Below, piece by piece: positions 15,737-42,878 of a stretch of 64,000 nucleotides of DNA. This DNA comes from Methanosarcina mazei S-6. GTDB taxonomy: Archaea > Halobacteriota > Methanosarcinia > Methanosarcinales > Methanosarcinaceae. The stretch is from contig NZ_CP009512.1 of the NCBI RefSeq assembly GCF_000970205.1, forward strand, positions 1,984,001-2,048,000, given 5' to 3'. A model generated the notes under the pieces. The model searched no databases. It was given only the letters and a program-made list of their open reading frames with translations, and was not told the origin of the DNA. Each line of letters begins with the position of its first letter. Positions within the stretch are counted from its first letter, which is position 1. Both the position numbers and the translations under genes were made by a program.

Positions 15737-18700
15737 ATGAAATATGTGAACATTATATTCAGGATATTACTTTCTTCCATCCTTATTTCCGGTCTTGCAG
15801 CAGCAGGTTCCGGTATGGCTGATGAAAACGAATCGGTTGCACAGTTTACTTCCAGCCCGGACGCGGCTGAAGGAGGGGATTTTGCGGAAGGGTATTCTCT
15901 TGCTCCCGTAAATCCTGAGTTTCTGGAATATCAGGAGCAGATGAATAAAAAAGAAAAAACTGCCAGACTGCTATATTCCTCTCCGAATGAGCCGACTTCC
16001 GGAACAGAAGAGTATGTAACCGGGCTGCATCCAGCTCCTGTAAGCTTCTCGCACCTAAAAGCGGTTGAAGGTGCGGATGACCCTTACTCTTTTGAACCCT
16101 TTTACGACCTTCGGGCACTCGGAAAGGTCAGCCCTGTAAAAGACCAGATAGATTCGGGAAACTGCTGGACTTACGGGACATATGCCTCGCTTGAGTCCTA
16201 TCTTCTCCCATCAGAAACCTGGGATTTTTCGGAAAATAATATGAAAAATCTGCTCTTACCTTATTATCCCGATAGCTTTGATTGTTTTGAAGGCGGCTTC
16301 ACACTGATGTCTGCAGCTTATCTGGCGCGCTGGAGCGGACCTGTCGTTGAAACGGATGATCCATATGACTCTCATTCCAGGATTTCTCCAGAGGAGACGC
16401 CGATAGTAAAACACGTGCAGGAAATCCTCTTTATCCCGGACAGAGAGGGAGCCCTGGACAATGAAAACATTAAGTCGTCTCTTAAGGAATACGGGGCAGT
16501 CGCTTCTTCAATGTATGTGGATCTTGCCTGTTTTGATCCTGTTAACAACAGTTATTATTATGACGGCCAGGAATTCTCCAATCACCTTGTTGCTATTGTT
16601 GGCTGGGACGATTCTTTTGATAAAAATAAATTCAATCCGGCTGCTCCGGGAGACGGGGCCTTTATTGTAAAGAATTCCTGGGGTCCTGAATGGGGTGAAG
16701 AAGGTTATTTCTATATCTCATACTATGATTCGAAAATAAGCAGGGATAATGCAGTTTACACTGCAGAGGATCTTAACAGTTACGACTCCGTATACCAGTA
16801 TGACCCTCTTGGATGGGTCAACAGCTTCGGCTATGCTCAGAATACATCCGCCTGGGCTGCCAATCTTTTCACAGCCGAAGAAAACGAGACTCTCAATGCT
16901 GTCAGTTTCTATACCACGGACTCGGGAGCCGGGTATGATGTCTATATTTATACTGATCCGGTCTCCGGTCCTTTAAATCCTGAGGGTTTAGAAGCGTCCG
17001 AAAATGGGACATTTACTTACGCAGGTTACCATACCGTCCGGCTGGACCAGGAAGTTCCACTCACAGAAGGGCAGAATTTTTCAGTGGTGCTCAGGCTCAA
17101 TGCTCCTGATTACGGGTATCCGGTTGCCCTGGAGTGCCCCGTAGAAGAGTACAGCAGCAAAGCTTCTTCTCTTGCGGGAGAAAGTTACGTCAGCCCTGAC
17201 GGGATAAACTGGGCTGACCTCTCTTCTATCTTTGAAAATTCAAACGCCTGCATAAAAGCGTTTACTGACAGGGACGCAGCTCCGGAAGCAGCTTTTGTAC
17301 GGAATATTACTTCAGGGGCTGCCCCGCTTACGGTCAGTTTTTTTGACGCTAGCAGGAATCCCCCTGTGTCCTGGAACTGGGACTTTGGGGATGGTACAGG
17401 TTCTGCAGAAAAGAACCCTGTGCATACCTATCCTGAAGCAGGTCTTTACACAGTGACACTTTCAGTTGAAAACGAATTTGGAGACGACATCACATCCCGG
17501 GAAGATTGTGTTTCCGTGGGGGAGCAGACTGCAATCCTGTACGTTGACGATGAAGTATCCGATACTGCACCCGGCACTGATGCTCCACCTGACACTTTTC
17601 CTTCAATTCAGGAAGCAGTTGACAGGGCAGCTGCAGGTTCTACGATTATTGTCCGCGATGGCTGGTACAATGAAACCGTAAATATTGATAAAACCCTGAC
17701 AATCCGCTCCGAGTGCGGACCTGAACGCACAGTAGTCCAGTCTGACAACCCTGAAGACTGTGTTTTTTATATCACTGCAGACTCCGTAAATGTCAGCGGA
17801 TTCACCATAGTCGGGGCAGGCGATTACTCAAACGGGCTATTGTCCAATTATGGAATTCTTCTTTATAACGTAAAGGAAAACAATATCTGTAACAATATTC
17901 TCACAGATAATCTGCTCGGGATTTGCCTTTACGGTTCATCCAGCAATACGGTGAACGAAAACAATGCCAGTTCAAACGTCCATACAGGGATCTATCTCCA
18001 TGATTCTCATAACAATACTTTTCTAAAAAACAGAGCCGTTTCAAACAGCTGCGGGATCTGTCTTGAAGATTCGGGAGAAAACAGGCTCCGCAGCAATGAG
18101 ATGAGGGACAATGGATATAACTTGAAAATCACAGACTTTGGTTCCTTAAACGACATAGATACGAGTAATACTGTTGATCTCAAGCCCATTTATCACGTTG
18201 CTGGGAAAAGCGACTTCGAAATAAACGCTTCTTCCAGGGCAGGGGCTGTTTTCTGTATTAACTGCCAGAATGTGGCAATAAGGGATCTCAACCTGGAAAA
18301 CAACTATTGGGGAGTTGTTCTCTGCAATACGGACACTTTTCTGCTTGAAAATAACACCCTTGCAAACAACAGTATAGGGATGTATCTCCTTGACTCCGGG
18401 GACGGAAAAATCATAAACAACAGAGCAGTTTTGAATGAAGAGTGCGGTTTCCTTTTTGAAAACGCATGTGAAAATAACATTGAGAACAACACTGCAGATT
18501 CAAACATGGTATACGGGCTCTACCTTGCCAGTTCCTGTGGAAATGCCCTTAAAAACAATACAATGTCGGACAACTGCTATAATTTTGGAGCCGAGGGGCT
18601 GCTTGAACCGAACAGTATAGAAACAAACAACCTTGTTAACGGCAAACCGATTTATTTCTATGTAAACGAGCCTGGAGAAATTGTGCTTGATTCAAATTCA

Positions 18701-20284
18701 AATGCAGGGACAGCTTATTTTATTTCCTGCCAGAACGTTACGGTCAGGGACCTTGCCCCTGAGAATAACGTATGCGGCATTTATCTCTATAATACAAGCG
18801 GGGCAAAGCTTGAAAATAACACCGTATCTGACAACCTTTTTGGCATCTCTCTTGTAGATTCCGATGGCTGCGTGCTCGAAAAAAACAGTGCTTCTGGCAA
18901 TAATGCAGGCATTTATGTTTTAAGTTCAAATAATACCCGAATTGCGGGCAACACCCTTTCGGAAAACGGGCACGGCATCTGTATTGCAGATTCCAGGGGC
19001 AACAGCTTGACCAGTAACATCGCCTCGGAAAATTACAACGGATTTTATGCTGCCGCGTCCGAAAACAACACTTTTGTAGAAAACCTGGCAAATTACAACT
19101 TTGAAGGTATATATCTGGAGTCTTCGGATAACAACCAGTTAATTAATAATGCTGTTCTGGGAAACAGCTACGGCATCGACCTCACATTTTCGAAAAATAA
19201 CAGTCTCGAAGCAAATAATGCGAACCTGAACTATTACGGGACCTCAATGTGGGCTTCTGACAACAATACAGCTTCTAACAGTGATTCCAGTTTGAATTTA
19301 CTGGGAATTTTGCTCTTGGCATCTGAAAATAATAAGTTAATAAATAACACTGTTCTCACGAATCTGTACGGGGTCAACCTTATGGCCGAAAGCACAGGCA
19401 TCGGGGATAAAACAGGCCCTTCTGAAAATATCCTCGCGTCGAATATTATTTCTTATAACCTTGGTACGGGAATCCTGTTCGATGAGAGCTATGGAAACCT
19501 TATTTACAACAATTCCTTTGACAACATATGGAATGTTGAAGATGAGAGCCTTAATACCTGGAACAGTTCCGAAATCGGGAACTACTGGAGTGATTATGAA
19601 GGTGAGGACGCTGACGGAGACGGAGTAGGCGATACACCCTATCTTATAAATTCTCACACCGGCAGCATGGATTATCTGCCAGTAACCCGTTCTTCCGATT
19701 TTCCGGAGTTTGTTGAAGATAGCATTTCAGGAAAGCGGGATGTTCAGGATTACAGGGGCATTTCGGAAGAGTTTGCGGGAAGTTTATGGACAGTTGAAGC
19801 CCTGAAAAATGGGGGTTCTAAAGACAGGAAAGCCAGTTTCAGCCTGAGCACTCCGGAATCTGGCATAACCGAACAGGGTTTTGAACCCTGGAAGCATTCT
19901 GCAATGGTAGCCTCAGGAAACGGGGGCCCAGGAAGGGGGCTTTCAGGTGCTGGCAGTGAGACAGATAGTAAACCGGAGAGTGGTTTCTTCAGGGATTATA
20001 AAATCTCCCGTACTATTGAGGTTTCCAGGGGCATGAGCCTCCTGGTAGGGGATGAAGAACCTGAAAACTCAGAGAATATAAATAAGGCAGTTATGGAATT
20101 CAGGGTTTCAAAAGCCTGGGCTGAAGAGAACAATATTGATATTTCCACGGTCGTCCTCAAAAAGTCCCATGATGAAGTCTGGACTCCTTTTGAAACAGTC
20201 GTGACCGGGGAAGACGAGGAATATTATTTCTTCGAGGCTGAAGCTCTTGATTTTCCAGGTACGCTGCTATGGGAACAGAAATGA
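15737..20284 (+). CDS. exported C1-family peptidase with lectin-like, PKD, NosD-repeat and PGF-pre-PGF regions
   Basis: A 1515-residue multidomain surface protein. Residues 1-25 are a signal peptide. A papain-type C1 domain follows: catalytic Cys143 in DSGNCWTYG, His in SNHLVAIVGWDD, Asn in FIVKNSWGPEWGEEGYF. Residues about 390-515 form a lectin-like beta domain often paired with C1 peptidases. A PKD domain (WNWDFGDGTG) spans about 515-595. A long right-handed beta-helix of NosD/PbH1 repeats (NNTxxxNxxGIxLxxS pattern) runs to about 1310. The last 95 residues match a PGF-pre-PGF domain (SKAWAEENNIDISTVVLKK), but the PGF-CTERM anchor that often follows is absent. GAGGGAG precedes the ATG. Likely an extracellular protease bound to cell-envelope glycans. 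Confidence 0.9.
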   Translation: MKYVNIIFRILLSSILISGLAAAGSGMADENESVAQFTSSPDAAEGGDFAEGYSLAPVNPEFLEYQEQMNKKEKTARLLYSSPNEPTSGTEEYVTGLHPAPVSFSHLKAVEGADDPYSFEPFYDLRALGKVSPVKDQIDSGNCWTYGTYASLESYLLPSETWDFSENNMKNLLLPYYPDSFDCFEGGFTLMSAAYLARWSGPVVETDDPYDSHSRISPEETPIVKHVQEILFIPDREGALDNENIKSSLKEYGAVASSMYVDLACFDPVNNSYYYDGQEFSNHLVAIVGWDDSFDKNKFNPAAPGDGAFIVKNSWGPEWGEEGYFYISYYDSKISRDNAVYTAEDLNSYDSVYQYDPLGWVNSFGYAQNTSAWAANLFTAEENETLNAVSFYTTDSGAGYDVYIYTDPVSGPLNPEGLEASENGTFTYAGYHTVRLDQEVPLTEGQNFSVVLRLNAPDYGYPVALECPVEEYSSKASSLAGESYVSPDGINWADLSSIFENSNACIKAFTDRDAAPEAAFVRNITSGAAPLTVSFFDASRNPPVSWNWDFGDGTGSAEKNPVHTYPEAGLYTVTLSVENEFGDDITSREDCVSVGEQTAILYVDDEVSDTAPGTDAPPDTFPSIQEAVDRAAAGSTIIVRDGWYNETVNIDKTLTIRSECGPERTVVQSDNPEDCVFYITADSVNVSGFTIVGAGDYSNGLLSNYGILLYNVKENNICNNILTDNLLGICLYGSSSNTVNENNASSNVHTGIYLHDSHNNTFLKNRAVSNSCGICLEDSGENRLRSNEMRDNGYNLKITDFGSLNDIDTSNTVDLKPIYHVAGKSDFEINASSRAGAVFCINCQNVAIRDLNLENNYWGVVLCNTDTFLLENNTLANNSIGMYLLDSGDGKIINNRAVLNEECGFLFENACENNIENNTADSNMVYGLYLASSCGNALKNNTMSDNCYNFGAEGLLEPNSIETNNLVNGKPIYFYVNEPGEIVLDSNSNAGTAYFISCQNVTVRDLAPENNVCGIYLYNTSGAKLENNTVSDNLFGISLVDSDGCVLEKNSASGNNAGIYVLSSNNTRIAGNTLSENGHGICIADSRGNSLTSNIASENYNGFYAAASENNTFVENLANYNFEGIYLESSDNNQLINNAVLGNSYGIDLTFSKNNSLEANNANLNYYGTSMWASDNNTASNSDSSLNLLGILLLASENNKLINNTVLTNLYGVNLMAESTGIGDKTGPSENILASNIISYNLGTGILFDESYGNLIYNNSFDNIWNVEDESLNTWNSSEIGNYWSDYEGEDADGDGVGDTPYLINSHTGSMDYLPVTRSSDFPEFVEDSISGKRDVQDYRGISEEFAGSLWTVEALKNGGSKDRKASFSLSTPESGITEQGFEPWKHSAMVASGNGGPGRGLSGAGSETDSKPESGFFRDYKISRTIEVSRGMSLLVGDEEPENSENINKAVMEFRVSKAWAEENNIDISTVVLKKSHDEVWTPFETVVTGEDEEYYFFEAEALDFPGTLLWEQK

Positions 20285-29182: not shown

Positions 29183-30122
29183 ATTCTCAGGTACTTATGC
29201 AGGTGAATCCTGAATTTTCTGAAAATTGGATGGTCAGACTTAAATATGTTTTTATTCAGTCCCTCCCATTTTCTTTCGCTGTTTTGGTTGCGTTTCCCAC
29301 TTCAGAAGAATATTATTTATACTGAATGGTGAAAATTTATACTGAATGGTGAAGAACTGAACTTATAAAATCTCAAAAAGCTGCTTTCCTTTGGAAAAGA
29401 TGTGATTAATTCTCAATTCTAACCGGTTGTATTTTTCAAGGAGATAAAATAGAAATTTATAACTAAAGTATGCGTCTAAAAGAAATGATTTTTATTTTTG
29501 GAGTTTTCCTTTGATTTTTTTAATAATATGACAACATTATATTCAAGTATTTAATGTGCCTCTGATTACAATGAAATTAAATTAAATTAGGACACATGCC
29601 TTAAACTCTTTAAATATCCAAGACCATACCTGCTTCAAGAAAGCTGTTGATAATTTTCAGATTCCAATTATCTATTGAGTTCAGGTTATACTGAAAGTAA
29701 CTATGTTTCTGAACATATATTCTCTATGAATCTTATACCATTATACTTATATTGACATATGTCAAGTATCTTTTAATGGGTCAAAAAACGTAATCAGTAC
29801 GCATTTAAGGAAATAATAGAGTTTGCGCTGTCGAGTCACTAAATTAGTACAAAAAGCCAAAGTTATCAAAACGTATTTTTTTCATAATATCTTTAGTGGT
29901 AAATTTCGGTACTAGGGTGCGTAAGTTCTATTTTAAAAATGAAGCCTGGTTTGTGACTATTGAAGATATTTGGGGTCTATAGTGGGGCAGTTATAAAGGT
30001 TGCATTCTTGACCAGAAATCCGAAAAGCAGTCAATTTTGGAATAGATCATCCTTCATTAGTGATCACTATTGTTAGTAACTGACATTTGCGATCAATACT
30101 AGGAATAAGGGGAGAGTTGGAA
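29183..30122. promoter_or_regulatory. long AT-rich region upstream of the protease cassette
   Basis: No gene in about 940 bp. Visible elements are a direct repeat of TTTATACTGAATGGTGAA (about 29318-29352), a perfect palindrome TTGACATATGTCAA at 29752-29765, a TATA-like GTTATAAAGG near 29990, and a perfect palindrome TAGTGATCACTA at 30058-30069, about 55 bp before the first cassette gene. The palindromes are candidate operator sites, and the region probably holds the promoter of the cassette. Confidence 0.45.
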
Positions 30123-32540
30123 ATGGTTGATGCTGTAGGACCAGTATTTACGGGTGGATTTGAGGAATTTGTTGTTAATGGGGAAAGCGGCGAGCAATAT
30201 ACGATCCTTTACCTGCCTGATCGGAATAACGATCAATTACAGAGAGAAGGTAAAGCTCCGGTTTACTACTGGGTGCCAGGACAGGTACGGTTAGCCCGTT
30301 TTGGTGACACTGGCGACTTCAAGTTCCGCCACATTCATTTTGTAGGCGTTATGGATGAGCAAACACATGTGGGTGTAGAGGGCCGTGCCGAAGTGGTAGG
30401 TGGGTTGCTGTCATTCACAACCACATCCCGATATCCGACTTCGGTTCTTAAACAGGCAGAGGAGCAACTTTTGAATAAATTCCGGGGTAATAATGACCGC
30501 TACTGGGGATGGCGTACACAGGCTGCCCCCATGTTTCGCATAGCCCCTATTCGTGACAACCGTACAGCGATCACGAATCTGACTCCAGGCCGCAATGGCA
30601 CCGCACCTGCAGAAAATATAAGCGCCCCGGCAGGCGGTGGTGCTACATCTGGTGGTATTACTCCTCCGGGGGAATCGGGGGCAGCCCCCAGGAGCCTGGT
30701 GCGCCGTGCAGATCTGAGCAAGCGTGTAATACACGGTCGTGCAAACAATGAATCCAATCTGGATGCCTGGGCTTGGGAACTTCAGGGTCAGGGTCCAGGT
30801 TCGGTAACTGGCGGTGAAAACGCTTTTGCCGGTCTAGTTGGTGCCTATCCCAGCGAATTAATCTGGGCAGGTTTTCGTGGCGCTGCAAGCCCGATTGTCG
30901 CAACCCAGTACCTGACACTACCCGTGTGGAGCCAGGAAATCTGGCTGAAGATCACTGGTAACTGGGATCGCATCTTTCAGCACTTTTCTGCTCATGCCAA
31001 TGCAAAATACCTGTGGTTTGCGGGCGATGTCAAAGCAGAGTTCAACAACCTGCGCATAAACGGCGATATCAAAGTGGAGATGGCCATTGACGGAACTATA
31101 CCCGGAGCAGAAAATATAGAGAAAGAGATCAATAAACGTATTGAACTTATATCGCAAAAATTCATGGATGAAGCTGCTAAACGCATATTTGAACCTGCAC
31201 CACCGACTGTAGAGCCAGCCCAGGCACCAAGTGGCGGCATATTTAGCAGCATCTTTGGTTATGGTGGGGGGTTTGCCCTCAAGTATCGTCGTGACCAGAC
31301 AAAACTCGATTTGAAATATGAAGAGACGCGCTACCATCGTTATTTGCAGCCCACAACCATCAGCTCCTCCTTCGAAGGTATCTATAATGAATTAAAGCGC
31401 GACCCCGATGCGGAGAAAAAATACTTCGTCCGTTTGATTATGGGTGACCTCAGCCGCAAAGTGACCCGTATAGTCAAACCTATAGTTAACTGGCCGGATC
31501 CGTCTAAAAGCTGGGTCGGTGAACCTGTGGCCTTCCTATCCGCAGAAATCGGTTATCCTGGTCCCACGGGCAGCAAACAGTGGATGGCGCATGTCTTCCA
31601 GAGTACGGATACAACTGATCAGACCAACTGGTCTCCAGCCTTCGCACTGCGCCAGAAGGACGAAGTGTCCAACCCACCAGATGACTGGGAACCTGATGTT
31701 ACTTATGTGCGCCGGCGTGTCCACCTCACCGAACCAATGGGAATTACAGATAATCCGCTGGTAAAGGTCGATGTTGAGAAGAATGTAGTCGACCTGGACC
31801 CGGAAGGAGGTACTCCTACTACCGATAATGTCCTGGAGGTGCGTGCCGATTCTGCAGGTAAACTGGAGGTAGGGCCTATAGATATTGATGTAGTGTTGCA
31901 GGACAATACCCAGGTGGTGACTGTGGAATTCAAGGCAAGTGGACATAAACACGATGGAAGTGAAAGACCGGTTGTCAGGTTCCAGTGGAAATTCGATGAC
32001 CAGTCAAGCCCGCGTTACTGGGAAATTTTTACAGGTCAAACTGATTACGCGCCTATATACGATTACCGCGTCACTGTTGATGTCAAAGGCACACTTTTCA
32101 GCCGGGGCATGGCGTGGACAGGACCATGGACATCAGGCCTGGGCAATGGCCCGCTTATGGTACACGTTCCCTCTCCTGATGAAGCAGGAGTAAATACACG
32201 CCGTATGGAGCCCAGGCAGGTAGCAGTCGAGTCCCCGGTAGGTCAGCCCGTTGAGGAAAGCAAGCCGTCAACATCAGCGCCTCCAGGTGATGAATCCGGT
32301 GGAACGACGTCACCAATTACTGCACCGCCGGGAAGCCCGCGTACAGAGAGCGTCCCTGAAAAAAAGGAGGAACATATCGTTGCCGGATACAATGTCAACC
32401 AGCCCCGGGTAGAAGCACCTCCAGGAGAGTTCGGCGAAACCAAAACAACTAAAAAAACAGCCCGTACTAAAAAAACAGTAGCCGAAAAAACCGAGAAACT
32501 TGAAGAACTGACCGGGGACAAAAGCTGGGTGAAGTTATAA
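30123..32540 (+). CDS. large beta-rich protein of unknown function (cassette gene 1)
   Basis: An 805-residue protein I do not recognise. The start at 30123 follows AAGGGGAGAG; an in-frame ATG 36 bp upstream lacks one. No signal peptide or membrane helix. The N-terminal 150 residues are beta-rich, followed by a Gly/Pro/Ser linker (about 175-210), a central region with NNLRINGDIKVEMAIDGTIP, and a C-terminal beta region (VRFQWKFDDQSSPRYWEIF). The end is a Pro/Gly-rich segment and a Lys/Thr-rich tail (KTTKKTARTKKTVAEK). Arginine is often CGN rather than the AGR favoured in neighbouring genes, suggesting acquisition. It heads a five-gene plus-strand set with two peptidases. Confidence 0.85.
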   Translation: MVDAVGPVFTGGFEEFVVNGESGEQYTILYLPDRNNDQLQREGKAPVYYWVPGQVRLARFGDTGDFKFRHIHFVGVMDEQTHVGVEGRAEVVGGLLSFTTTSRYPTSVLKQAEEQLLNKFRGNNDRYWGWRTQAAPMFRIAPIRDNRTAITNLTPGRNGTAPAENISAPAGGGATSGGITPPGESGAAPRSLVRRADLSKRVIHGRANNESNLDAWAWELQGQGPGSVTGGENAFAGLVGAYPSELIWAGFRGAASPIVATQYLTLPVWSQEIWLKITGNWDRIFQHFSAHANAKYLWFAGDVKAEFNNLRINGDIKVEMAIDGTIPGAENIEKEINKRIELISQKFMDEAAKRIFEPAPPTVEPAQAPSGGIFSSIFGYGGGFALKYRRDQTKLDLKYEETRYHRYLQPTTISSSFEGIYNELKRDPDAEKKYFVRLIMGDLSRKVTRIVKPIVNWPDPSKSWVGEPVAFLSAEIGYPGPTGSKQWMAHVFQSTDTTDQTNWSPAFALRQKDEVSNPPDDWEPDVTYVRRRVHLTEPMGITDNPLVKVDVEKNVVDLDPEGGTPTTDNVLEVRADSAGKLEVGPIDIDVVLQDNTQVVTVEFKASGHKHDGSERPVVRFQWKFDDQSSPRYWEIFTGQTDYAPIYDYRVTVDVKGTLFSRGMAWTGPWTSGLGNGPLMVHVPSPDEAGVNTRRMEPRQVAVESPVGQPVEESKPSTSAPPGDESGGTTSPITAPPGSPRTESVPEKKEEHIVAGYNVNQPRVEAPPGEFGETKTTKKTARTKKTVAEKTEKLEELTGDKSWVKL

Positions 32541-32672
32541 AATGCATTTCTGTCGAGCGTAACTTGCTTGCTTTTGAGGATTACGGATTCTGACCTGACA
32601 GGATTCTATTCCTCTTCTCTTTCCAGTTTTTATCTTACGGAGAGTCTTTTGAGCAGGCAGGGGAGGAACCTT

Positions 32673-35600
32673 ATGTCCGATATGATAGCTAATGATCAGC
32701 CCGGCGAAGAAGACTGGATACCTGGCTCGGTAACCCTAGGTAACGGTAAGGTAATTTCTATCCTGACCATACCTGCTGCCAGCGGATATGTTACCTACGT
32801 GCTGCCACAAATTCCTTCTCTTGTTAATAGTACATCTGGAGAGCCGATGCTTTCCCTCTCTCTTATTCTCAGCAGGCAGCCGGGTCCCGAAGAGGACAGC
32901 GTTTATCCGCTGATAGAAAGCGCACTCCTTACAATGGATGTAAGGATAGGGATAGAAGCGAGTGTACTGGACGCAATGTTCGCTTCCTGCCAGGGGGAAT
33001 GCCGCAGGCTCTTTGCCCGTAGTATAGATTACCAGTTTTTTTTGTCAGAAGATGACCAGAAGCCACCTGTTATTCTGACACAGGCGAAAGCCAGCGGGAG
33101 CGAAGGCCGCACAGGCATAAGTGTTCACCTTGACCATATGCAGGCTCTGGATGTGCTTGCAGCACTTGACAGCACACCATCACGCCTACATCTCTCCGCC
33201 ACCATTCATTATCAGACTGCCGGAATTTCTCATTCCGTTCACCTCTCTGGTTCCTGGGCTGCCATGCACGACTTCATCAGTGGTTATCAGGACGATAGCG
33301 GCTATATCAGTGAAACTCAACTCTACCAGCTCATTTCAGATATGGCTGAGAAAGGGCTTCTCATGGTTACCGAAGAAAATGGCAGTCCAATACATTTACC
33401 CTCTGAGGATCTGGTGCACCTCTTTATGCGCCAGGCAATGGTTATCTTACGCAGGGAACCAGATCCCGAAAATGATAAAGTTCGGTACGCGCTTCGTCCC
33501 CGTCCATATGAAGGTTTTGGACTCAGCTACACCGAATCTATTGTCACCGCTGGCATGAAGACCTGTGAGCTTTGCACGTCTCTGGACCAGATTATTGGTG
33601 GTATACTTAAGGGTCGTAACTGGACAGAATATGTGCACCTGGTGGCTAAGGAGTCCAATTCCTCCGAAATCTTATCACCGGTTCCTAAAAAGGTGCATGC
33701 AACAAGGAGCCGGCGGGGAGAACGTAGCGGCAGCAGCATAAAAATGGCTGCAATTGACAATAGCCTCGTTTCACTTTCTTTAGCTGCCCTTCCCGGCACC
33801 TTTTTTACTCCTCTCCCAAATCAGGGAATGTTACATCCTTCGAAGGAAGCGATCCATCATATCGAGCTGGACGATTTCCGTCTGGACCTGGGGAAACCTA
33901 TTAATCGACGCAGCCTGCCTGTTGTTGGTAACCGAAACGCACCTTACTGGAGCGACCGCATAGATGCCAATAAATTATGGTACGCTCCTGTATACGAAAT
34001 AATTGAGCCTGAACCCAATGCTGATCCCGGCAGCAGTCCATTTCTGTTTTCTTTTGAACGGTTTGGAGCTACCGGTACCGGAGAACCTGCTCTTCGCGGA
34101 AGCGTAAGATTTACCCTGCGTTTCAGAATGAGTGAAGAGACCGAATCTGCCCTGAGCCAGATTAACCTTGTTAATAAAGCTCAACCCGTAAACTTTGAGA
34201 ATCTCTCCGTTTCTTTACTGGTACCCTTTGTCGATGAAACCGATGGTCGGGTCAAGCAGCACTTTTTCGAAGCGGCTGTGCAAAAGCAGGGGGATACTGT
34301 GATCGCGACCGTATCGATGCTTAACGAATGGGTACGTCTCACTTACGGTGCGCTTGCCATAGAGGATTTTCAGGAGTCTTCCGCACAGGTTCAGGTTGCT
34401 TACACCTTCAAAAGTTACGTGCCTGTAGAAGGTAAGAATCTGGAACTTGCATTTGGCGGAAAAGCGATATACACTCCAGTTACCTATTCTTCTGCGGAAG
34501 CTTCTGCATTAAAGGGTACACCCTATCTGGATGCAACTACTCTTACACATTTCCGGCCAGTAGAGGAGGTACATTATATTCGTGAGGCGTCCGGTTTATT
34601 TCCTCGCCTCGATTCACGTTTTGAGGTTTCCACCCCGGTCAAGTTCCCGGTTCTTTCAAGCCAGCCAGTGACTTCTACGGCTGTTCGGGTGAGACCGCAG
34701 TTGACTGTCGCCACCAGTGTAGCATCTCTTATAAAAAAAGTAAAATACGCTATCCATACTGAGGTACAGCAGCAAATAAAGGCTCTTCTGGTCCCTTGCA
34801 ACCTTTTTGGCAATTTTTATCAGGAAATACGCAATGAAGCGCCAGCTTCTATTGGTTGTCAGGATGCCTTCAAACTTGGCCGGATAAGCTATAACCAGTA
34901 TGAAGAAATAAGTGCTCTACGTGACCCGGCATATCTGGTCTACAGATCATTGCAGCAGCCCGGGCATTTCCTGGTGGTTCCAGCTTCTTTCTGCATCAGT
35001 AGGCGTACCGCTGGTGAGACTGACGCTTACCGTCCTTTAATTTTCCTCAATGCTCTTATTGATTCAGCAGTGGCTTCAAACAACCGTGTCGAGTTGCGTG
35101 CCACTCTTGAACCCGATTTGCCTTTATTTAAGCTCAGCGCACTTCTGGAGCAGCTTAAAGCATACGATCAAAATCCGAAAATCCATTACCCAACTGACAT
35201 TCCATACGAAAAGGTTGATTTCAATTGGGCGATGCACACCTCCATCACTGCCAGTAGCGAGGCAGATCTACTGGAAGTCAATGGTCCTTTCATTAGCGCC
35301 TACTTCAGTATGGGCCTGCCCGACTGGCAATTAATGCGCAGCGTTTTGAGCAGTCCGGGGCTTGGCGGAAGTGTTTCTTTTACACTGGCAGACGGCAGCA
35401 AGCTTGTTTCTAACCTGCTGCTTAAGCTGGACAGGATACGTGGACCCTGGCATGGTGGTCCCCTGGAGGTAGCATCTCAGGACGGTAAAGTAAAACTTTC
35501 CAACCGTATTGAAAGGGCCATCGACGTCAGCGACCTCGTACGTTATGCCGGAAACAGCGTGGCTGAAAGAGTGCCTGTGGGGGTCTCACTTGTTCCAGAC

Positions 35601-36005
35601 CAGACTTTTACCGTGTCTGCCGGCAGCGGACTCCAGCCTGTCTACAGCTACCCTCCGGGTGATCCGGTAGCTATTGAAGAAGTGCGCAGTTTCGTTGAAG
35701 ACATCTACAGTAACCTTATTTTTATAAACCTGACCAATTTCGGCAACCATAACCTCCTTCGACTTGATGTGGAGGCCCGGTTGCAGGGGCTGAACAGCCT
35801 TTACACAGCCCAGCTCACAGAAGAGCTGCCTGTGGCTGACATTCCTATTGTGCTGCCTCTAACTACCTACCTGGAGAAGCATATACTGGATTTCCGTGTA
35901 ATCAAGATATTCAATAATCGTAGTGCGGAGACGACTGAATGGATTCATTGGGATCTTGGTACTGCTGTTCCAATCAGCCTGACGCGCGAGCTCCTTGGCC
36001 TTTAA
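32673..36005 (+). CDS. large protein of unknown function (cassette gene 2)
   Basis: A 1110-residue protein I do not recognise. I start at ATG 32673, which has an excellent ribosome-binding site (GGGGAGG, 6 nt spacing), rather than at the TTG 105 bp upstream. No signal peptide or membrane segment. The sequence is mostly beta-type with islands of helix (QLYQLISDMAEKGLLMV near residue 215; VEQQ-rich helix near 700). Cys clusters (CQGECRR, CELC) occur in the first third. No catalytic motif is apparent. It may be a structural or binding component. It lies 132 bp after gene 1 and 121 bp before the subtilase gene. Confidence 0.85.
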   Translation: MSDMIANDQPGEEDWIPGSVTLGNGKVISILTIPAASGYVTYVLPQIPSLVNSTSGEPMLSLSLILSRQPGPEEDSVYPLIESALLTMDVRIGIEASVLDAMFASCQGECRRLFARSIDYQFFLSEDDQKPPVILTQAKASGSEGRTGISVHLDHMQALDVLAALDSTPSRLHLSATIHYQTAGISHSVHLSGSWAAMHDFISGYQDDSGYISETQLYQLISDMAEKGLLMVTEENGSPIHLPSEDLVHLFMRQAMVILRREPDPENDKVRYALRPRPYEGFGLSYTESIVTAGMKTCELCTSLDQIIGGILKGRNWTEYVHLVAKESNSSEILSPVPKKVHATRSRRGERSGSSIKMAAIDNSLVSLSLAALPGTFFTPLPNQGMLHPSKEAIHHIELDDFRLDLGKPINRRSLPVVGNRNAPYWSDRIDANKLWYAPVYEIIEPEPNADPGSSPFLFSFERFGATGTGEPALRGSVRFTLRFRMSEETESALSQINLVNKAQPVNFENLSVSLLVPFVDETDGRVKQHFFEAAVQKQGDTVIATVSMLNEWVRLTYGALAIEDFQESSAQVQVAYTFKSYVPVEGKNLELAFGGKAIYTPVTYSSAEASALKGTPYLDATTLTHFRPVEEVHYIREASGLFPRLDSRFEVSTPVKFPVLSSQPVTSTAVRVRPQLTVATSVASLIKKVKYAIHTEVQQQIKALLVPCNLFGNFYQEIRNEAPASIGCQDAFKLGRISYNQYEEISALRDPAYLVYRSLQQPGHFLVVPASFCISRRTAGETDAYRPLIFLNALIDSAVASNNRVELRATLEPDLPLFKLSALLEQLKAYDQNPKIHYPTDIPYEKVDFNWAMHTSITASSEADLLEVNGPFISAYFSMGLPDWQLMRSVLSSPGLGGSVSFTLADGSKLVSNLLLKLDRIRGPWHGGPLEVASQDGKVKLSNRIERAIDVSDLVRYAGNSVAERVPVGVSLVPDQTFTVSAGSGLQPVYSYPPGDPVAIEEVRSFVEDIYSNLIFINLTNFGNHNLLRLDVEARLQGLNSLYTAQLTEELPVADIPIVLPLTTYLEKHILDFRVIKIFNNRSAETTEWIHWDLGTAVPISLTRELLGL

Positions 36006-36126
36006 ACTAATAACAGCCTGGCCTGCAAAAGACGCCTTTTGTTATAGCCGGGATTTCAGACCGAAGACACATCAGGGTAACCGAATAAGTGGATTTGTGA
36101 GGATAACCGAGCAGGGGGATATTGAT

Positions 36127-38544
36127 ATGACAAATGGTAATGGAAATAGATCCGAAAGTAATGGGGAAAGAAGCAACTACTACTATGATGCTGCCAGCAA
36201 AAGACGAATACCTTTAGTGCGTGAACCTCGAGTTTTTGCTGTGCGTTACCGTTCCGGAAGAAGTTCACGCGATTCAAATTTATCTACTCATGCGCTCCGC
36301 CTGCTAAGGGAGGAATCAAAGAATATCGGGTTCATTCCAAACTACGGCCTTCAACTGTACCAGACCAACCCTGAAGCTATCAGCCTGCGCACCGATCCTG
36401 AAGAACAATTGCAGGATGTGATTACCCGTGTAAAGAAGTTGAGTACGGAAGAGCCCGTGGATTACGCTGCTGTGGCTTACTTGCGAAACCCGGAGAAACG
36501 TTCAACTCTTGTTGATGACCTTATGTTTGTCACTCGTGAATTTATAGTACAGTTTGAACCACGAATGGCAATGGAAGAAATAGAAGCATTCAACGCAAAG
36601 TACGGCGTTCGCATAATAAAAGAGCTGGGTTATGTCGAAAACGGTTACCTGCTTGAAGCGCCCGAGGCAGAAGGTGAAAATGGACCGGTAGTTCTCTCCA
36701 ATATCTATTATGAATCAGGTAAGGTAATATTTTCCCATCCTGATTTTATTAGGAGAAGGCACCTGCGTGAAACAGGTGAACGGGTGAGAGGGAGCTTTAA
36801 TCCGGCAGTCGTTTCGGCGCGGGCTGAGCAGCCAGTGTACCTTTTGCAACAGTGGCACCTGAAGACGGCAAAAGTTCTGGATGCATGGGGAATCACCCGC
36901 GGCAGCGGTAGCATAAAAGTAGCTATCCTCGACGATGGAATTGATACCGGACATCAGGAGTTTTCTGGTAAAATTGTAGCCCAGCACGACTTTGCTTCTG
37001 GAGGCGATGACGGCAGTCCAAATACCAATGACGATAACCACGGCACAGCCTGTGCAGGCGTTGCTGTTGCTAAGGGGGTACGTGCCTCAGGGGCTGCTCC
37101 GGGCTGTTCTTTAATTGCTGTTCGTTATCCGGACTTCCTCGGCCTGGAAGAAGAAGCCCAGATGTTCCGATGGGCAAAAGATCAAGGTAGCGACGTCATA
37201 AGCTGCAGCTGGGGCCCGAAGGATGGCACCGGGGCTGTTGACCCTTTACCGGATAATGTGCGTGCTGCCGTTCACTACTGCGTTACCCAGGGGCGCAACG
37301 GTCTTGGCATCCCTATATTCTGGGCTGCAGGAAACGGGAACGAATCTGTAAGTAATGATGGTTATGCCTCCAACCCCGAGGTCATGGCTGTAGCCGCTTC
37401 CAGCAACAATGAACGCCGCTCTCCTTATAGTGATTTTGGTCCGGAGGTTTTCATCTGTGCCCCCTCAAGCGGTAGCGGAAGTCTTGGAGAGTGGAGAATT
37501 TTTACCGTTGACCGCCGCGGCAGTAATGGATACAACCCTGATCCTGATACGGGTATCTCTCACCCTGCCAATGATCACGATTATACTGATGACTTTGGAG
37601 GGACTTCATCTGCTACACCGCTGGCTGCCGGCATCACTGGTCTTCTGCTTTCCATAAACCCAAACCTGCGGGTAGAGGACGTGAAGCAGATTCTGCGAGA
37701 TACTGCCGATAAGATTGACCCGAGCAATGGTAATTATGATGTCAATGGCCACAGTAACCTCTACGGATACGGCAGGATAAATGCCCTGAAGGCTGTGGAA
37801 CGGGCCCGGGATTCAGGTCAGGGTACGATCGGCACTGTTGGACGGCCGACCATTAACGGGCCTGACAGCATTAGCCGCAACAACCAGCCTCCCGCCTTCC
37901 AGATTAACACAGGTGGACGCAGCTTTTATGCTGTGGAAGTTGCTACCAGAGCAGAACTTTTCAATACGGGTTCTCACGGCAGTGAACGTAATTCCAGCAA
38001 CTTTTATGCTTCGTGGACTGTACGTTTGGAAAACGTGACGCCCTATAACCTTCCAGCAGATGTATGGGATCGGCTCAAGCAGGCTGACAACCTTTTTTAC
38101 AGGCTCCATGTGGCTAACGACGTTAACTGGTCCAATCATGACGTTACTGTTACTGATAACCAGGCTGATACCGCACCCAGCGTTCAGATCCTGGCAGTTT
38201 CAAGTCCCTCTTCTCCAGCAACAGGGCTATCTATCAAAGGGCCTGACAGCATTAGCCGTAGCAGCCAGCCTCCTGTCTTCCAGATTAACACAGGTGGACG
38301 CAGCTTTTATGCTGTGGAAGTTGCTACCAGAGCAGAACTTTTCAATACAGGTTCTCATGGCAGCGAGCGTAATTCCAGCAACTTTTATGCTTCGTGGACT
38401 GCAGGTCTGGAAAACGTGACGCCCTACAACCTTCCAGCAGATGTATGGGATCGGCTCAAGCAGGCTGACAACCTTTTTTACAGACTGCATGTAGCTAACG
38501 ATGTTAACTGGTCAAATCATGACGTTACTGTTGCTGATAGCTAG
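36127..38544 (+). CDS. subtilisin-like S8 serine protease ending at an in-frame UAG
   Basis: 805 residues before a TAG. Start at ATG 36127 after GAGCAGGGGG; an upstream in-frame ATG is unsupported. An inhibitor-like propeptide (FIVQFEPRMAMEEIEAFNAK, about 135-190) precedes the S8 domain. The catalytic triad is complete: Asp269 (ILDDGID), His305 (NHGTACAG), Ser494 (GGTSSATPLAAG), with oxyanion Asn in AAGNGN. After about 570 come two nearly identical 109-residue repeats. No signal peptide. The frame continues past TAG 38542-38544 straight into the M15 peptidase with no frameshift. The TAG matches CAG in repeat 1. It may be pyrrolysine or a nonsense change, so the true product may be 1166 residues (36127-39627). 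Confidence 0.93.
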   Translation: MTNGNGNRSESNGERSNYYYDAASKRRIPLVREPRVFAVRYRSGRSSRDSNLSTHALRLLREESKNIGFIPNYGLQLYQTNPEAISLRTDPEEQLQDVITRVKKLSTEEPVDYAAVAYLRNPEKRSTLVDDLMFVTREFIVQFEPRMAMEEIEAFNAKYGVRIIKELGYVENGYLLEAPEAEGENGPVVLSNIYYESGKVIFSHPDFIRRRHLRETGERVRGSFNPAVVSARAEQPVYLLQQWHLKTAKVLDAWGITRGSGSIKVAILDDGIDTGHQEFSGKIVAQHDFASGGDDGSPNTNDDNHGTACAGVAVAKGVRASGAAPGCSLIAVRYPDFLGLEEEAQMFRWAKDQGSDVISCSWGPKDGTGAVDPLPDNVRAAVHYCVTQGRNGLGIPIFWAAGNGNESVSNDGYASNPEVMAVAASSNNERRSPYSDFGPEVFICAPSSGSGSLGEWRIFTVDRRGSNGYNPDPDTGISHPANDHDYTDDFGGTSSATPLAAGITGLLLSINPNLRVEDVKQILRDTADKIDPSNGNYDVNGHSNLYGYGRINALKAVERARDSGQGTIGTVGRPTINGPDSISRNNQPPAFQINTGGRSFYAVEVATRAELFNTGSHGSERNSSNFYASWTVRLENVTPYNLPADVWDRLKQADNLFYRLHVANDVNWSNHDVTVTDNQADTAPSVQILAVSSPSSPATGLSIKGPDSISRSSQPPVFQINTGGRSFYAVEVATRAELFNTGSHGSERNSSNFYASWTAGLENVTPYNLPADVWDRLKQADNLFYRLHVANDVNWSNHDVTVADS

Positions 38545-38565
38545 GCTGATACTGCACCCAGCATT
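37858..38565 (+). repeat. two-copy 381-bp-period tandem repeat inside the S8 gene
   Basis: Copy 1 begins at 37858 and copy 2 at 38239, exactly 381 bp (127 codons) apart, and each is about 327 bp. DNA differences are few, so duplication or homogenisation is recent. The encoded domain (GPDSISR...FYAVEVATRAELFN...DVWDRLKQADNLFYRLHVAND) also occurs, diverged, at the C-terminus of the M15 peptidase. In copy 2 the codon matching CAG of copy 1 is the TAG that ends the S8 ORF. Confidence 0.95.
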
Positions 38566-38571
38566 CAAATT

Positions 38572-39627
38572 ATGAGCGGTACGACAGGTTCGGAAAAAAC
38601 AATAACTTTTCCGAGCGGTTCAACTTTCAGGGTTGTAGATACACCGCAGGATGGCATCGATTATAGTGATCCTGTTGGGAATGGTACGGTACCTCTTATC
38701 GAGGTACGCGACCGTATGCAGGAAAATATTTCAAAGAATTTTAAAGTTAAGGAACTTGCGGCTACGGACGGCGCAAGATATGCTCGCATTTCCCCTGAAC
38801 TGGTAGCAGGCTTACAGCGGATTCGAGATCGTGTGGGTTCGGCTGTCGTATTAAATTCCGGGTACCGCCACAACGTACTTAATGAAACGGTTGGCGGCGC
38901 AGATGAAAGTCAGCACATTACCGGCCGAGCGGCAGATATCCGTGCTTCTGCTAAAAGTCCTCTCGACCTGGCACGCATTGCCCTGGAGGAGCTGGGTTGT
39001 GATATAGGAATCGGATTAGGACGTAACAGTATTCATGTTGATCTGCGTGGCCAGTTAACCAGCTGGCGTTATGAGGGAGCCGAATTAAGCGAAAATGAAT
39101 TTGATCAGTGGGTACGCGATACATGTCAGCAACTTGGGCGTCGGCATTCAGAAAGGGCAGAATACAGCGAAAGAGTATTGCCCAAAATAATCGGACCGGA
39201 GGTCTATGTTGCCACTGACGAAGCGCCTGCTTTCTACATCGAAATCGGACCAAACTCTTACTATGCGGTTGAAATAGCCACGCACACAGACCTGTTCAGC
39301 AGTCAGTACGAAGCTGAACGTAATCCCGGTAATTTTTACAGTTCTCTGGAAAGGGAAGGACTCATAGAAGCTCACGGAGCTGCCACTACGTATACTCTTC
39401 CGAAAGAGGTATGGGAACGTCTGCGCGGTGAAAAGCGCCTTTATTACCGCATAGCCACCTCAGCTATGCCAGGAAGTAATATGCTCTACTCTACAACAGA
39501 TCAGCAGGCTGCCAATGCACCCTGGATTGAGATTACTGGCGGCCGACAGGAAAGAGAAGAATTTGCTGTCTCACCACTTGATCTGCAAGCAACTCGAAAA
39601 GCTGACGAAAATCTGTGGCGTAAATAA
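38572..39627 (+). CDS. M15/DUF882-type zinc peptidase with shared repeat domain, in frame with the S8 ORF
   Basis: 351 residues from the first ATG. Residues about 45-175 form an M15A/YcbK-like zinc peptidase domain with LNSGYRH (95-100), His115 and Asp122 in SQHITGRAADI, and His155 in IHVDLRG. In bacteria this family cuts D-amino-acid bonds of peptidoglycan, which archaea lack. Residues about 205-320 are a third copy of the domain repeated in the S8 protein. No ribosome-binding site precedes ATG 38572, which lies nine codons beyond the TAG in the same frame. Independent translation is therefore doubtful, and this is probably the C-terminal part of one large S8-M15 protein. Confidence 0.88.
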   Translation: MSGTTGSEKTITFPSGSTFRVVDTPQDGIDYSDPVGNGTVPLIEVRDRMQENISKNFKVKELAATDGARYARISPELVAGLQRIRDRVGSAVVLNSGYRHNVLNETVGGADESQHITGRAADIRASAKSPLDLARIALEELGCDIGIGLGRNSIHVDLRGQLTSWRYEGAELSENEFDQWVRDTCQQLGRRHSERAEYSERVLPKIIGPEVYVATDEAPAFYIEIGPNSYYAVEIATHTDLFSSQYEAERNPGNFYSSLEREGLIEAHGAATTYTLPKEVWERLRGEKRLYYRIATSAMPGSNMLYSTTDQQAANAPWIEITGGRQEREEFAVSPLDLQATRKADENLWRK

Positions 39628-39665
39628 TTGCTAAATAAAATTTTAGTAGATAAAGGAGGTCACCC

Positions 39666-42176
39666 ATGTTTTTCGAGTTGCAGCTTTCTTCGAAGGTTTT
39701 CGGACAGATAGTTCGGAACAGAATAAGGGCAATTCCACTCTGTATTGACCAGGAGTTCGACTTTGAAGGGACGAGATATGTTATTGATCACGTAGATATT
39801 ATTGACTCGATCACTGTCAGTAAACAAACTGTACCCACCCAGATCACCTGGATTTTTTCTTTGCAAAACTACACCTTTTTTACTGTTCCTTACCTTCAGG
39901 TCAAACAGGGAGTTACCGTGAGGCTGGTCAAGGGTTCTGACCTTGAACAAAACGGGCCAAAAGCGAGCCAGCCTTCAAAAGAGTTTACTGTTTTTCCGGT
40001 TTTTAATGTTTCAATGCAGGTTGTTGCAGCACAGGCCGGGAAGGGAGGACCTGTACAGATACGGTACGCTTTTGACCATGTAGAATATGGAATACTGGAC
40101 GCTCTGATTCCTCCAGCCTATAAGGAAAGGATTGAGAAGATCCTTGCAAGTCACCAGTTGACTCCTACCACAATCGATCTTTCATCGTTATCAGGATTGC
40201 TCAACCGCCCGGTTACTGCGATCAATGCTGGTATCACATGTAACTCAGAGGGTGATCTCATTGCAATGCGTATCGAGATCAGTGCAGATGCAGACCTGAT
40301 GCCTGATTTTTTTACTCTGGATCCTGTGAGCCTGCTCAATGGATGTGACTGGGCCTTACTGGTTGACGCCCGCATTTTCACGGAAGAGGCGAGCACGAAG
40401 ATAAAAGATGGGCTCAAGAATGTATCCAAGTTCAGGCTACGGAGAGGCCCATCAGTGTCCTGGGATCCCAGCGGTCCGGCTATTAACGTAAACCTGGGAG
40501 GCGAGGCTGTGGATGCATGTCCATTCTTTGTAGATGATATTGATATGGATGTGGATGTGAAGATAAGGGCAGTACTTTCCGTTCCTCCTAATACAAAAAA
40601 ACTCAGGACGCATTATCACTTCAATCCCTCTGCATCAAACATTGTCGAAGAGGTAGCCTGTGCGGTTACCGCAGCGCTTCTATGGCCATTTGTAGGACTT
40701 GTTATGTTTGACCGGGGCCAGATTGACCTGCCAAAGTACCTTATCGGCGTATTCGTTCACCCCTTGATAAGGTTCGTTGCCCTCGTCTTTGCGATCGAAA
40801 CGCAGGGACTGTCGGATGATATTTCCCGCGATCTCGGGAGGAATTGCAAGAAGCAGGATGATGAGAACTATGAATGCGAGGATGATTTTGATTTCAGCCT
40901 GGCAGGTCTTGGAGGTCGCCTGGAACTTAACAATATTAAAGGAATTCCTCAGGGTCCGATCCTGAGCGGCACTATTGCGAACCTCAGGGATTTCGATATT
41001 GGGCAGATTACAAGCGTGAACATAGCCGCCTTCAAGTGGCAGGTAACAGGCCAATGCAAGTCAGGATTTTTCATAACAAATCAGGCTTCTATCTTCATCG
41101 GTGTGGAACCGCCAGCAGCCCTCTGCTCAGCCAGAATAGTAGATGACCCTTTAAATGAGTTCACGTTGGTTACGGGAGATAATGAGATTACCATTCAACC
41201 CGGGTTCAAGCCAGATTATGTGCAGAACCCGTACCCCTGCCGCATCAGGCTGGTCACCACACATGGGGTAAGGACTATTACCATTCCCCCTCCCAGGGAA
41301 CAAACAATCCAGGAAACACAGGACCTGGAAACAGGGAGGTTAAGGGCTATTGCCTCCTGTTACCGCTGGGAGAAGCACTTTACCCCCAGGGAAAAAATCA
41401 GGTGGCTCATTGACCCGCCGTCAGACACGGAGCAGTATCTTCAGCTCTGGCAGATAGATGTGAGCAACCTCCAGCCTGGAGATCGAATCCGGGTTGAAGA
41501 TCAGGCAGGTAAGAGGATATTATCCGCTCTTCCGTCAGAAACCGGGATAGCAGGTCTAACTCTGCTTTTCGAAGGAAAAGATGCGCCTTCAGAACTGTCG
41601 CTAGAACTGGACGGAATAATCAATGAAAACCAGGAACCAAGGAAAATGGAAATCCGGCAAACTCTCTATGCTCACCGTTCCTCTGTTCCGGCGCCTCTAA
41701 ATCTGCAGCGATTGTCATTTGATAAAGACGGCAAGAGGAACCTTCTTGTATACTCTTCTCTTCACGAGGAACATAAGCTGGATGTTAGCGCTCCGACAGT
41801 CCCGGTGCTACAGGGTCTCATAGCAGAAAGCGAGCATATTGTAGAAGAAACACAGGTCATACACAGAGAACAGCAGATTGCCTCTTCGATAACGCAGCAC
41901 GAAAAGACTCTTGAGTTGCTCCGTCCGCGGCTGGGGAATATCCTTGCTATCGGCAACCCCAGGATAGGAGAACTCAAGAAAACCCTGTACGTGGGCATGG
42001 AGCAGGGGGGAACTCTGTTTGACCTCTCAAACCCTGAAAATCCTCGAGAGCTCCAGAAATATGAAGGTAAACCCTGGTTTGAGGATACAGCTCTTTCTGA
42101 TCGCCTTCTCGCCAGGCATGCTCCTGAAAAAGGAAAAATCGAAATATTTGAAGCAATAGCCTCACGTATTATTTGA
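39666..42176 (+). CDS. large protein of unknown function (cassette gene 4)
   Basis: An 836-residue protein I do not recognise, with a textbook ribosome-binding site (AAAGGAGGT) 6 nt before the ATG. No signal peptide; a weak hydrophobic stretch near 345-365 (VACAVTAALLWPFVGLVMF) may be a buried or membrane-associated helix. The N-terminal 300 residues look beta-rich. The middle holds Cys pairs (CKKQDDENYEC). A helical segment near 740-770 precedes a short propeller-like motif (GTLFDLSNPENPRELQKY) at the C-terminus. It follows the M15 stop by 38 bp, so it is probably in the same transcript. Confidence 0.85.
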   Translation: MFFELQLSSKVFGQIVRNRIRAIPLCIDQEFDFEGTRYVIDHVDIIDSITVSKQTVPTQITWIFSLQNYTFFTVPYLQVKQGVTVRLVKGSDLEQNGPKASQPSKEFTVFPVFNVSMQVVAAQAGKGGPVQIRYAFDHVEYGILDALIPPAYKERIEKILASHQLTPTTIDLSSLSGLLNRPVTAINAGITCNSEGDLIAMRIEISADADLMPDFFTLDPVSLLNGCDWALLVDARIFTEEASTKIKDGLKNVSKFRLRRGPSVSWDPSGPAINVNLGGEAVDACPFFVDDIDMDVDVKIRAVLSVPPNTKKLRTHYHFNPSASNIVEEVACAVTAALLWPFVGLVMFDRGQIDLPKYLIGVFVHPLIRFVALVFAIETQGLSDDISRDLGRNCKKQDDENYECEDDFDFSLAGLGGRLELNNIKGIPQGPILSGTIANLRDFDIGQITSVNIAAFKWQVTGQCKSGFFITNQASIFIGVEPPAALCSARIVDDPLNEFTLVTGDNEITIQPGFKPDYVQNPYPCRIRLVTTHGVRTITIPPPREQTIQETQDLETGRLRAIASCYRWEKHFTPREKIRWLIDPPSDTEQYLQLWQIDVSNLQPGDRIRVEDQAGKRILSALPSETGIAGLTLLFEGKDAPSELSLELDGIINENQEPRKMEIRQTLYAHRSSVPAPLNLQRLSFDKDGKRNLLVYSSLHEEHKLDVSAPTVPVLQGLIAESEHIVEETQVIHREQQIASSITQHEKTLELLRPRLGNILAIGNPRIGELKKTLYVGMEQGGTLFDLSNPENPRELQKYEGKPWFEDTALSDRLLARHAPEKGKIEIFEAIASRII

Positions 42177-42295
42177 GTAGCTATTTGAGGATTGAATAAG
42201 AAAGAAGATTATGTAGAGCAAACACATATGATAAAGAATCTTTCAATAAGATTCTCTTTTATGCGTCATTCAAACAAAACATTGTGGGAGTTTTT

Positions 42296-42805
42296 ATGTC
42301 CGGGGAAATATCGATTTATGGAAAGATACAGGGGTATGACCAAAAACCGATTTTTATGGTACAGGTATCGATATGGCGAGAAGACAATTTCGGCCCTCAA
42401 TATGAGGCAGACCGTACTTACACGAGCGAAGATGGTACTTACAGGCTTTCCGTACCATCTGGTACACCAATTACTCTGCGCTTCGATACGCACTGGTCGT
42501 TAACTAACTCAACGGAGTGGCACCCGTCCGTGGTTGCAAACATAGAAGCCGGGCACGATGTGGTATTTAATCGTTACCTTATGCATGTTGGTACGACAGA
42601 AGGTGTTATGGCTGAAATTGACGCGCTTGCAGCCTACCAGTTCTGTGCCGTTTGGACTGCCAGGCAAACAGATCGGGAATCAGCTCGAAAATATGCTGAA
42701 TCCACAGTTTCCCGGCTGTCGCAGATGAAGATTTCTTTGCCTGAACTTGATGAGTTTCGAACTAAGCTAATAGACTTCTTCAAAGGACAGGCTGAATCTT
42801 CCTGA
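42296..42805 (+). CDS. small protein with transthyretin/carboxypeptidase-regulatory-like domain (cassette gene 5)
   Basis: A 169-residue protein. Residues 3-75 show the beta-sandwich pattern of carboxypeptidase-regulatory or transthyretin-like domains (SIYGKIQGYDQKPIFMVQVS, then YTSEDGTYRLSVPSGTPITL). The rest is helical (MAEIDALAAYQFCAVWTARQ onward). GGGAG lies before ATG 42296; the GTG at 42284 is an in-frame alternative. No signal peptide. It closes the plus-strand cassette, 119 bp after gene 4, and is followed by convergent genes. It could be an accessory or chaperone-like subunit; no function is assigned. Confidence 0.8.
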   Translation: MSGEISIYGKIQGYDQKPIFMVQVSIWREDNFGPQYEADRTYTSEDGTYRLSVPSGTPITLRFDTHWSLTNSTEWHPSVVANIEAGHDVVFNRYLMHVGTTEGVMAEIDALAAYQFCAVWTARQTDRESARKYAESTVSRLSQMKISLPELDEFRTKLIDFFKGQAESS

Positions 42806-42878
42806 TTCCATATTTTTGCCAGAATTGAACAGTTATCACATTTCAGTATTACAGGAAATCAAAGAACTTTTATAAAAT

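Follow-up and report, generated by a model that had tools for sequence, protein, structure and literature searches.

The interrupted protease gene and its island

The window, a 64,000-nucleotide stretch of the genome of Methanosarcina mazei S-6, carries an island of ∼13 kb that comprises four large genes. The island extends approximately over 29183..42878, from a fumarate-hydratase-like gene to the next native genes, and both ends are approximate. Its flanking genes lie 14.6 kb apart here and ∼0.9–1.0 kb apart in two other Methanosarcina species (G009 and G020), and its G+C content is 49%, compared with 44% for the window. On the + strand, a gene for an uncharacterised protein of ∼805 residues (30123..32540), with a homologue 42% identical on a Deinococcus taeanensis plasmid, is followed by one for an uncharacterised protein of ∼1110 residues (32673..36005), by the interrupted protease gene and by one for an uncharacterised protein of 836 residues (39666..42176). 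The last has a strong Shine-Dalgarno sequence (AGGAGGT) and a homologue 31% identical on a Rhodococcus ruber plasmid. Searches of Pfam, PHROG, NCBIfam and PADLOC returned no match for these three proteins. Neither the 836-residue gene nor the M15 half of the protease described below was found in the genomes searched from 30 other Methanosarcina species.

The protease gene begins at ATG 36127, and its first open reading frame ends at TAG 38542–38544 (+ strand). The part before the TAG (36127..38541) encodes an N-terminal region of ∼240 residues, a Peptidase_S8 domain at residues 262–549 (PF00082, E = 2.7e-44), a repeat predicted to fold as a β-sandwich (repeat 1, 37837..38211) and most of a second copy (repeat 2, 38215..38592). 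The same frame then continues from 38545 to TAA 39625–39627. This continuation (38545..39624) encodes the last strand of repeat 2, a Peptidase_M15_3 domain (PF08291, E = 1.2e-21) and a third copy of the repeat (39172..39546). These coordinates agree with those of the earlier note, which also described the downstream frame as open to the TAA; the frame does stay open, for 360 sense codons and not for the 361 that had been counted. When the TAG is counted as a residue, the frame specifies 1166 amino acids with the TAG at position 806, as had been proposed. The PF08291 match, together with an orthologue that is read through this position (see below), rules out a chance open frame after the TAG.

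The motif residues of both peptidases, which we assigned from the usual motifs of the two families, are intact: D269, H305, N403 and S494 in the S8 domain, and the His/Asp/His motif H930, D937 and H970, a predicted metal-binding zinc site, in the M15 domain. The TAG itself belongs to neither peptidase domain but to an accessory repeat. By eye, no signal peptide was seen on the protease. The first in-frame ATG after the TAG is at 38572, nine codons (27 nt) downstream, and the whole M15 domain lies 3′ of it. The absence of a ribosome-binding site at this ATG, claimed previously, was borne out, with no Shine-Dalgarno match in the preceding 20 bases. Given that such a match was found for just 15 of the 28 long open reading frames in the window, and that the S8 start at 36127 also lacks one, this absence is weak evidence.

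A related arrangement is present on the D. taeanensis plasmid (L023, 14662–22091, − strand), where homologues of the two upstream island genes are followed by a protease in which the repeat of the window protein occupies the corresponding position; the homologue of the ∼1110-residue protein lies directly upstream. There, by contrast, a caspase-family protease takes the place of S8-M15, and no TAG interrupts it. Because the same upstream genes and repeat are thus paired with another protease, the island looks, by gene content, like a mobile gene set with a variable, exchangeable protease part. The plasmid S8 subtilases of Pantoea agglomerans and Leisingera caerulea (38–39% identical) share the N-terminal region and the S8 domain but end after the latter, with neither the repeats nor M15.

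The fused orthologue and the three repeats

Of 345 genomes of the phylum that were searched, a single one, from another family of the same class (G304), contained a close relative of the S8 part. The G304 orthologue is a single uninterrupted frame of 1182 codons, 72% identical end to end to the whole window protein, and both proteins share the order S8, repeat, repeat, M15, repeat. At the position of the TAG, its codon is CAA (Gln), as it is in its own repeat 1, and at the position of ATG 38572 it has ACN-type sense codons and no stop. Inspection of translations showed that the gene directly upstream in G304 is a homologue of the ∼1110-residue island gene. The S8 and M15 motif residues listed above are invariant between the two proteins. 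Two adjacent independent genes are ruled out by the fused orthologue. Given this fusion, the common domain order and the CAA at the site, the S8 and M15 parts derive, as judged from the comparison, from one ancestral gene, of which each represents a half; most simply, a Gln codon was changed to TAG in the Methanosarcina lineage. The continuous frame in a relative that the earlier note had proposed as a check was therefore found, with CAA at the site, and the proposal of one gene split solely by a TAG holds. The observation that would have spoken against it, separate S8 and M15 genes of such a kind, was not made in any of the 345 genomes.

No further orthologue was detected in the genus (31 genomes), in the phylum apart from G304, or in 50 genomes of the family of G304, viral contigs or plasmids, and a search of genome contigs returned bacterial M15 domains alone. 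The 30 other Methanosarcina species thus yielded no orthologue, with or without a TAG; the TAG is known from one genome.

Residue identity to the G304 orthologue is 74% before the TAG and 67% after it. The corresponding pS values are 0.77 and 0.79, indicating saturated synonymous sites, and pN/pS is 0.21 and 0.23. Conservation of residues while synonymous sites are saturated shows that constraint of one kind acted on the two halves through most of the history of the gene. It speaks, however, to long-term constraint and not to constraint after the TAG arose: saturated sites give no date for the TAG, whose origin may be so recent that it has left no trace. Across the 3917 codons of the four island genes, this TAG is the sole premature stop; the 360 codons that follow it contain no further stop or frameshift, and the three neighbouring genes are intact.

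The repeat of ∼120 residues occurs twice between S8 and M15 and once after M15. Identity is 86% between copies 1 and 2 and 38% between copies 2 and 3. At the site, copy 1 reads GATAACCAG and copy 2 reads GATAGCTAG; the sequences quoted previously were exact, and TAG in copy 2 stands where copy 1 has CAG. The diverged copy 3 reads DQQ, and so also has the Gln that had been reported there. The TAG copy further differs from copy 1 at two neighbouring positions (AAC/AGC at codon 805 and ACC/ACT at codon 809). Copies 1 and 2 have been homogenised within each species: the G304 pair differs at 2 of its first 105 codons and the window pair at about 26 of 112. The repeats thus date the TAG only as later than the last homogenisation of that base.

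An AlphaFold2 model of repeat 2 with its sister copies, which rests on three sequences, gave a fairly confident β domain (pLDDT 83). Here, the last strand of repeat 2 comprises residues 812–816, just past the TAG at 806. Comparison of the model with the PDB by Foldseek returned weak matches to α-2-macroglobulin-like and FN3-like sandwiches (best E = 0.009); with best E values of ∼0.01, the fold class is a lead and not an assignment. If the model is correct, an 805-residue product would break off within repeat 2, short of its last strand, and leave that domain unfinished. Such a form looks accidental rather than finished, which argues against a designed short product.

UAG decoding in the host

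The window genome (G000) encodes PylS, detected at 435 bits against a cut-off of 178. Its catalytic part is identical at 239 of 239 residues to PDB entry 2q7e, which we take to be M. mazei PylS, and a tRNA-Pyl gene with anticodon CUA lies just upstream of the PylS gene. The ability of the host to decode UAG as pyrrolysine, asserted earlier for the genus, is thus borne out in this genome by the genes themselves. By contrast, no PylS match above the cut-off was obtained in G304, a genome that is 99% complete, and of the two orthologues, one accordingly comes from a host that decodes UAG and the other from a host that does not.

Of 396 long frames in 464 kb sampled from the window genome, 28 end in TAG. 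Besides the protease gene, convincing cases of a gene split by TAG were confined in this sample to four copies of an IS66 transposase gene, which share an in-frame TAG (DHPE*VIEHS) and lie at L026 2606–4078 (− strand) and on L028, L033 and L034; genome-wide, a 749-base stretch of this transposase bearing the TAG is present in six identical full-length copies. A family of such transposases in which the amber codon is conserved has been described from M. acetivorans and M. mazei (PMC2933860). Like the protease gene, these IS66-family genes have an in-frame TAG in the same genome and are otherwise intact. They differ from it in that the TAG is common to many copies, so that the element has spread with it. 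Because a TAG-free relative could have moved the copies, they are supporting evidence only.

Among 64 S8 matches in the genus, a different S8 gene in G029 (L017, 7208–9229, − strand) was alone in having a lone internal stop, a TAG (GVAALIL*LNPSLR) at a position where its relatives have Ser. It sits shortly after the catalytic serine, and G029 also has PylS. One other of the 64 matches has three stops and is decayed. The G029 gene is a second candidate for incidental pyrrolysine and fits, as one case, a scattered tolerance of TAG in pyrrolysine-decoding hosts. In another Methanosarcina genome, a fumarate-hydratase-like match (G006:C1:3053430-3054302) contains one TAG, which may be an alignment end effect.

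Interpretation of the TAG codon

The observations are best explained by an ancestral fused gene in which a Gln codon became TAG and is now partially and incidentally read as pyrrolysine at position 806, with short and long forms both tolerated; we assign this reading a probability of roughly 0.6. The island would have been transferred from a donor that does not use pyrrolysine, probably before the mutation, and a C-to-T change at one Gln codon (CAG/CAA) of the second β-sandwich repeat would then have created the TAG. In a host that charges tRNA-Pyl(CUA), some ribosomes would insert pyrrolysine at 806 and complete a double protease of 1166 residues; the remainder would stop, leaving an S8 protein of 805 residues in which repeat 2 is without its last strand. 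The occurrence, level and neutrality of readthrough, and the order of transfer and mutation, are points that we infer. A generic amber codon in M. acetivorans is read through at 20–30% and is mostly read as stop (PMC2933860), UAG decoding needs no cis element (PMC8211752), and Thg1 of M. acetivorans is a proven incidental pyrrolysine protein in which the residue is not essential (PMC2933860). By these precedents, a mixture would be expected, mostly of the short form with a minority of full-length protein containing pyrrolysine. Short and full-length enzyme thus probably occur together, a mixture that reflects tolerance and not design.

The closest parallel is Thg1 (tRNA-His guanylyltransferase), which likewise has a single species-specific in-frame TAG in a pyrrolysine-decoding host, with a sense codon in relatives and a residue that is not needed for function. 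The cases differ in that pyrrolysine has been physically detected in Thg1, whereas the protease is known from sequence, and in that the TAG of the protease gene separates two enzyme domains. The methylamine methyltransferases MtmB, MtbB and MttB also contain an in-frame TAG with conserved sequence on both sides in Methanosarcina genes; however, theirs is conserved across species, places pyrrolysine in the active site and is read through at up to 97%, whereas that of the protease replaces Gln in an accessory domain. A protein that requires pyrrolysine is not supported, since both repeat 1 and the orthologue have Gln at this position, which belongs to neither peptidase domain. Pyrrolysine at 806 would instead be a tolerated substitute for Gln with no chemical role.

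The main rival is a recent nonsense lesion, in which the TAG acts mostly as a stop, with the M15 half in effect lost and decay of the gene just beginning. It is a serious if clearly less probable account: the TAG is seen in one genome only, TAG makes up 44% of the single-base nonsense opportunities in the gene, and termination is the usual outcome at a generic UAG in Methanosarcina (PMC2933860). Given that a random lesion would often be a TAG, the identity of the codon is weak evidence for tolerance. Decay is countered by the intact M15 motif, by the otherwise unbroken codons after the TAG and in the neighbouring island genes, and by a host that decodes UAG through PylS and tRNA-Pyl. Sequencing or assembly error, with a sense codon as the true state, is improbable. 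A single genome and a site inside a long near-identical repeat would favour such an error, but the genome is one closed contig, and because codons 805 and 809 of the TAG copy are likewise distinct from those of copy 1, this is not a simple mix-up of repeats. Equally hard to credit is termination at the TAG with reinitiation at ATG 38572 to give a free M15 protein; the ATG is only 27 nt past the TAG, with the entire M15 domain downstream, but it lacks a Shine-Dalgarno sequence, the fused orthologue has ACN-type codons there, and no relative with the two domains as separate genes of this kind was found among 345 genomes of the phylum.

It is also unlikely that the TAG has been kept for a useful dual output, in the form of a fixed or methylamine-responsive ratio of S8-only to S8-M15 protein. 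The host decodes pyrrolysine, and the fold of the 100 nt that follow the TAG is somewhat more stable than those of shuffled sequences (z = −2.3). That z-score comes from one sequence, with no second TAG-bearing sequence for comparison; by itself, it is not evidence for a recoding signal, and UAG decoding needs none in cis. Moreover, the short form would lack the last strand of repeat 2, and the G304 orthologue makes the long form only. The idea in the earlier note that readthrough might set the ratio of the two forms gained no support here and is opposed by the incomplete domain. That the TAG is a functional switch, by which methylamine-linked pyrrolysine supply would set the share of S8 that carries an M15 cell-wall-type peptidase, is a long shot; if true, a methanogen would tie a possibly bacterium-directed enzyme to genetic code expansion.

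In-frame amber codons outside the methylamine methyltransferases have rarely been reported (PMC11467909). The two orthologues form a clean natural pair (TAG where the host has PylS, Gln where it does not), through which tolerance of stop-codon ambiguity in ordinary genes of a pyrrolysine-decoding cell becomes testable on one large, easily scored protein. Automatic annotation may list two genes, or a pseudogene, in place of this one gene.

As to function, the M15_3 domain resembles phage-endolysin-type peptidases (phrog_894), and peptidoglycan hydrolases are known to be used by archaea against bacteria, with a recognised signal peptide absent from most of these enzymes (PMC12352652). That the protease attacks bacterial cell walls is no more than a lead. 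A Paraburkholderia homologue of the 836-residue island protein (L047, 8919–12160) adjoins a gene annotated as type VI secretion Hcp. Elsewhere in the window, a gene at 15737–20284 encodes a surface-type protein of 1515 residues with a papain-family protease, a lectin-like domain, and PKD and NosD β-helix repeats.
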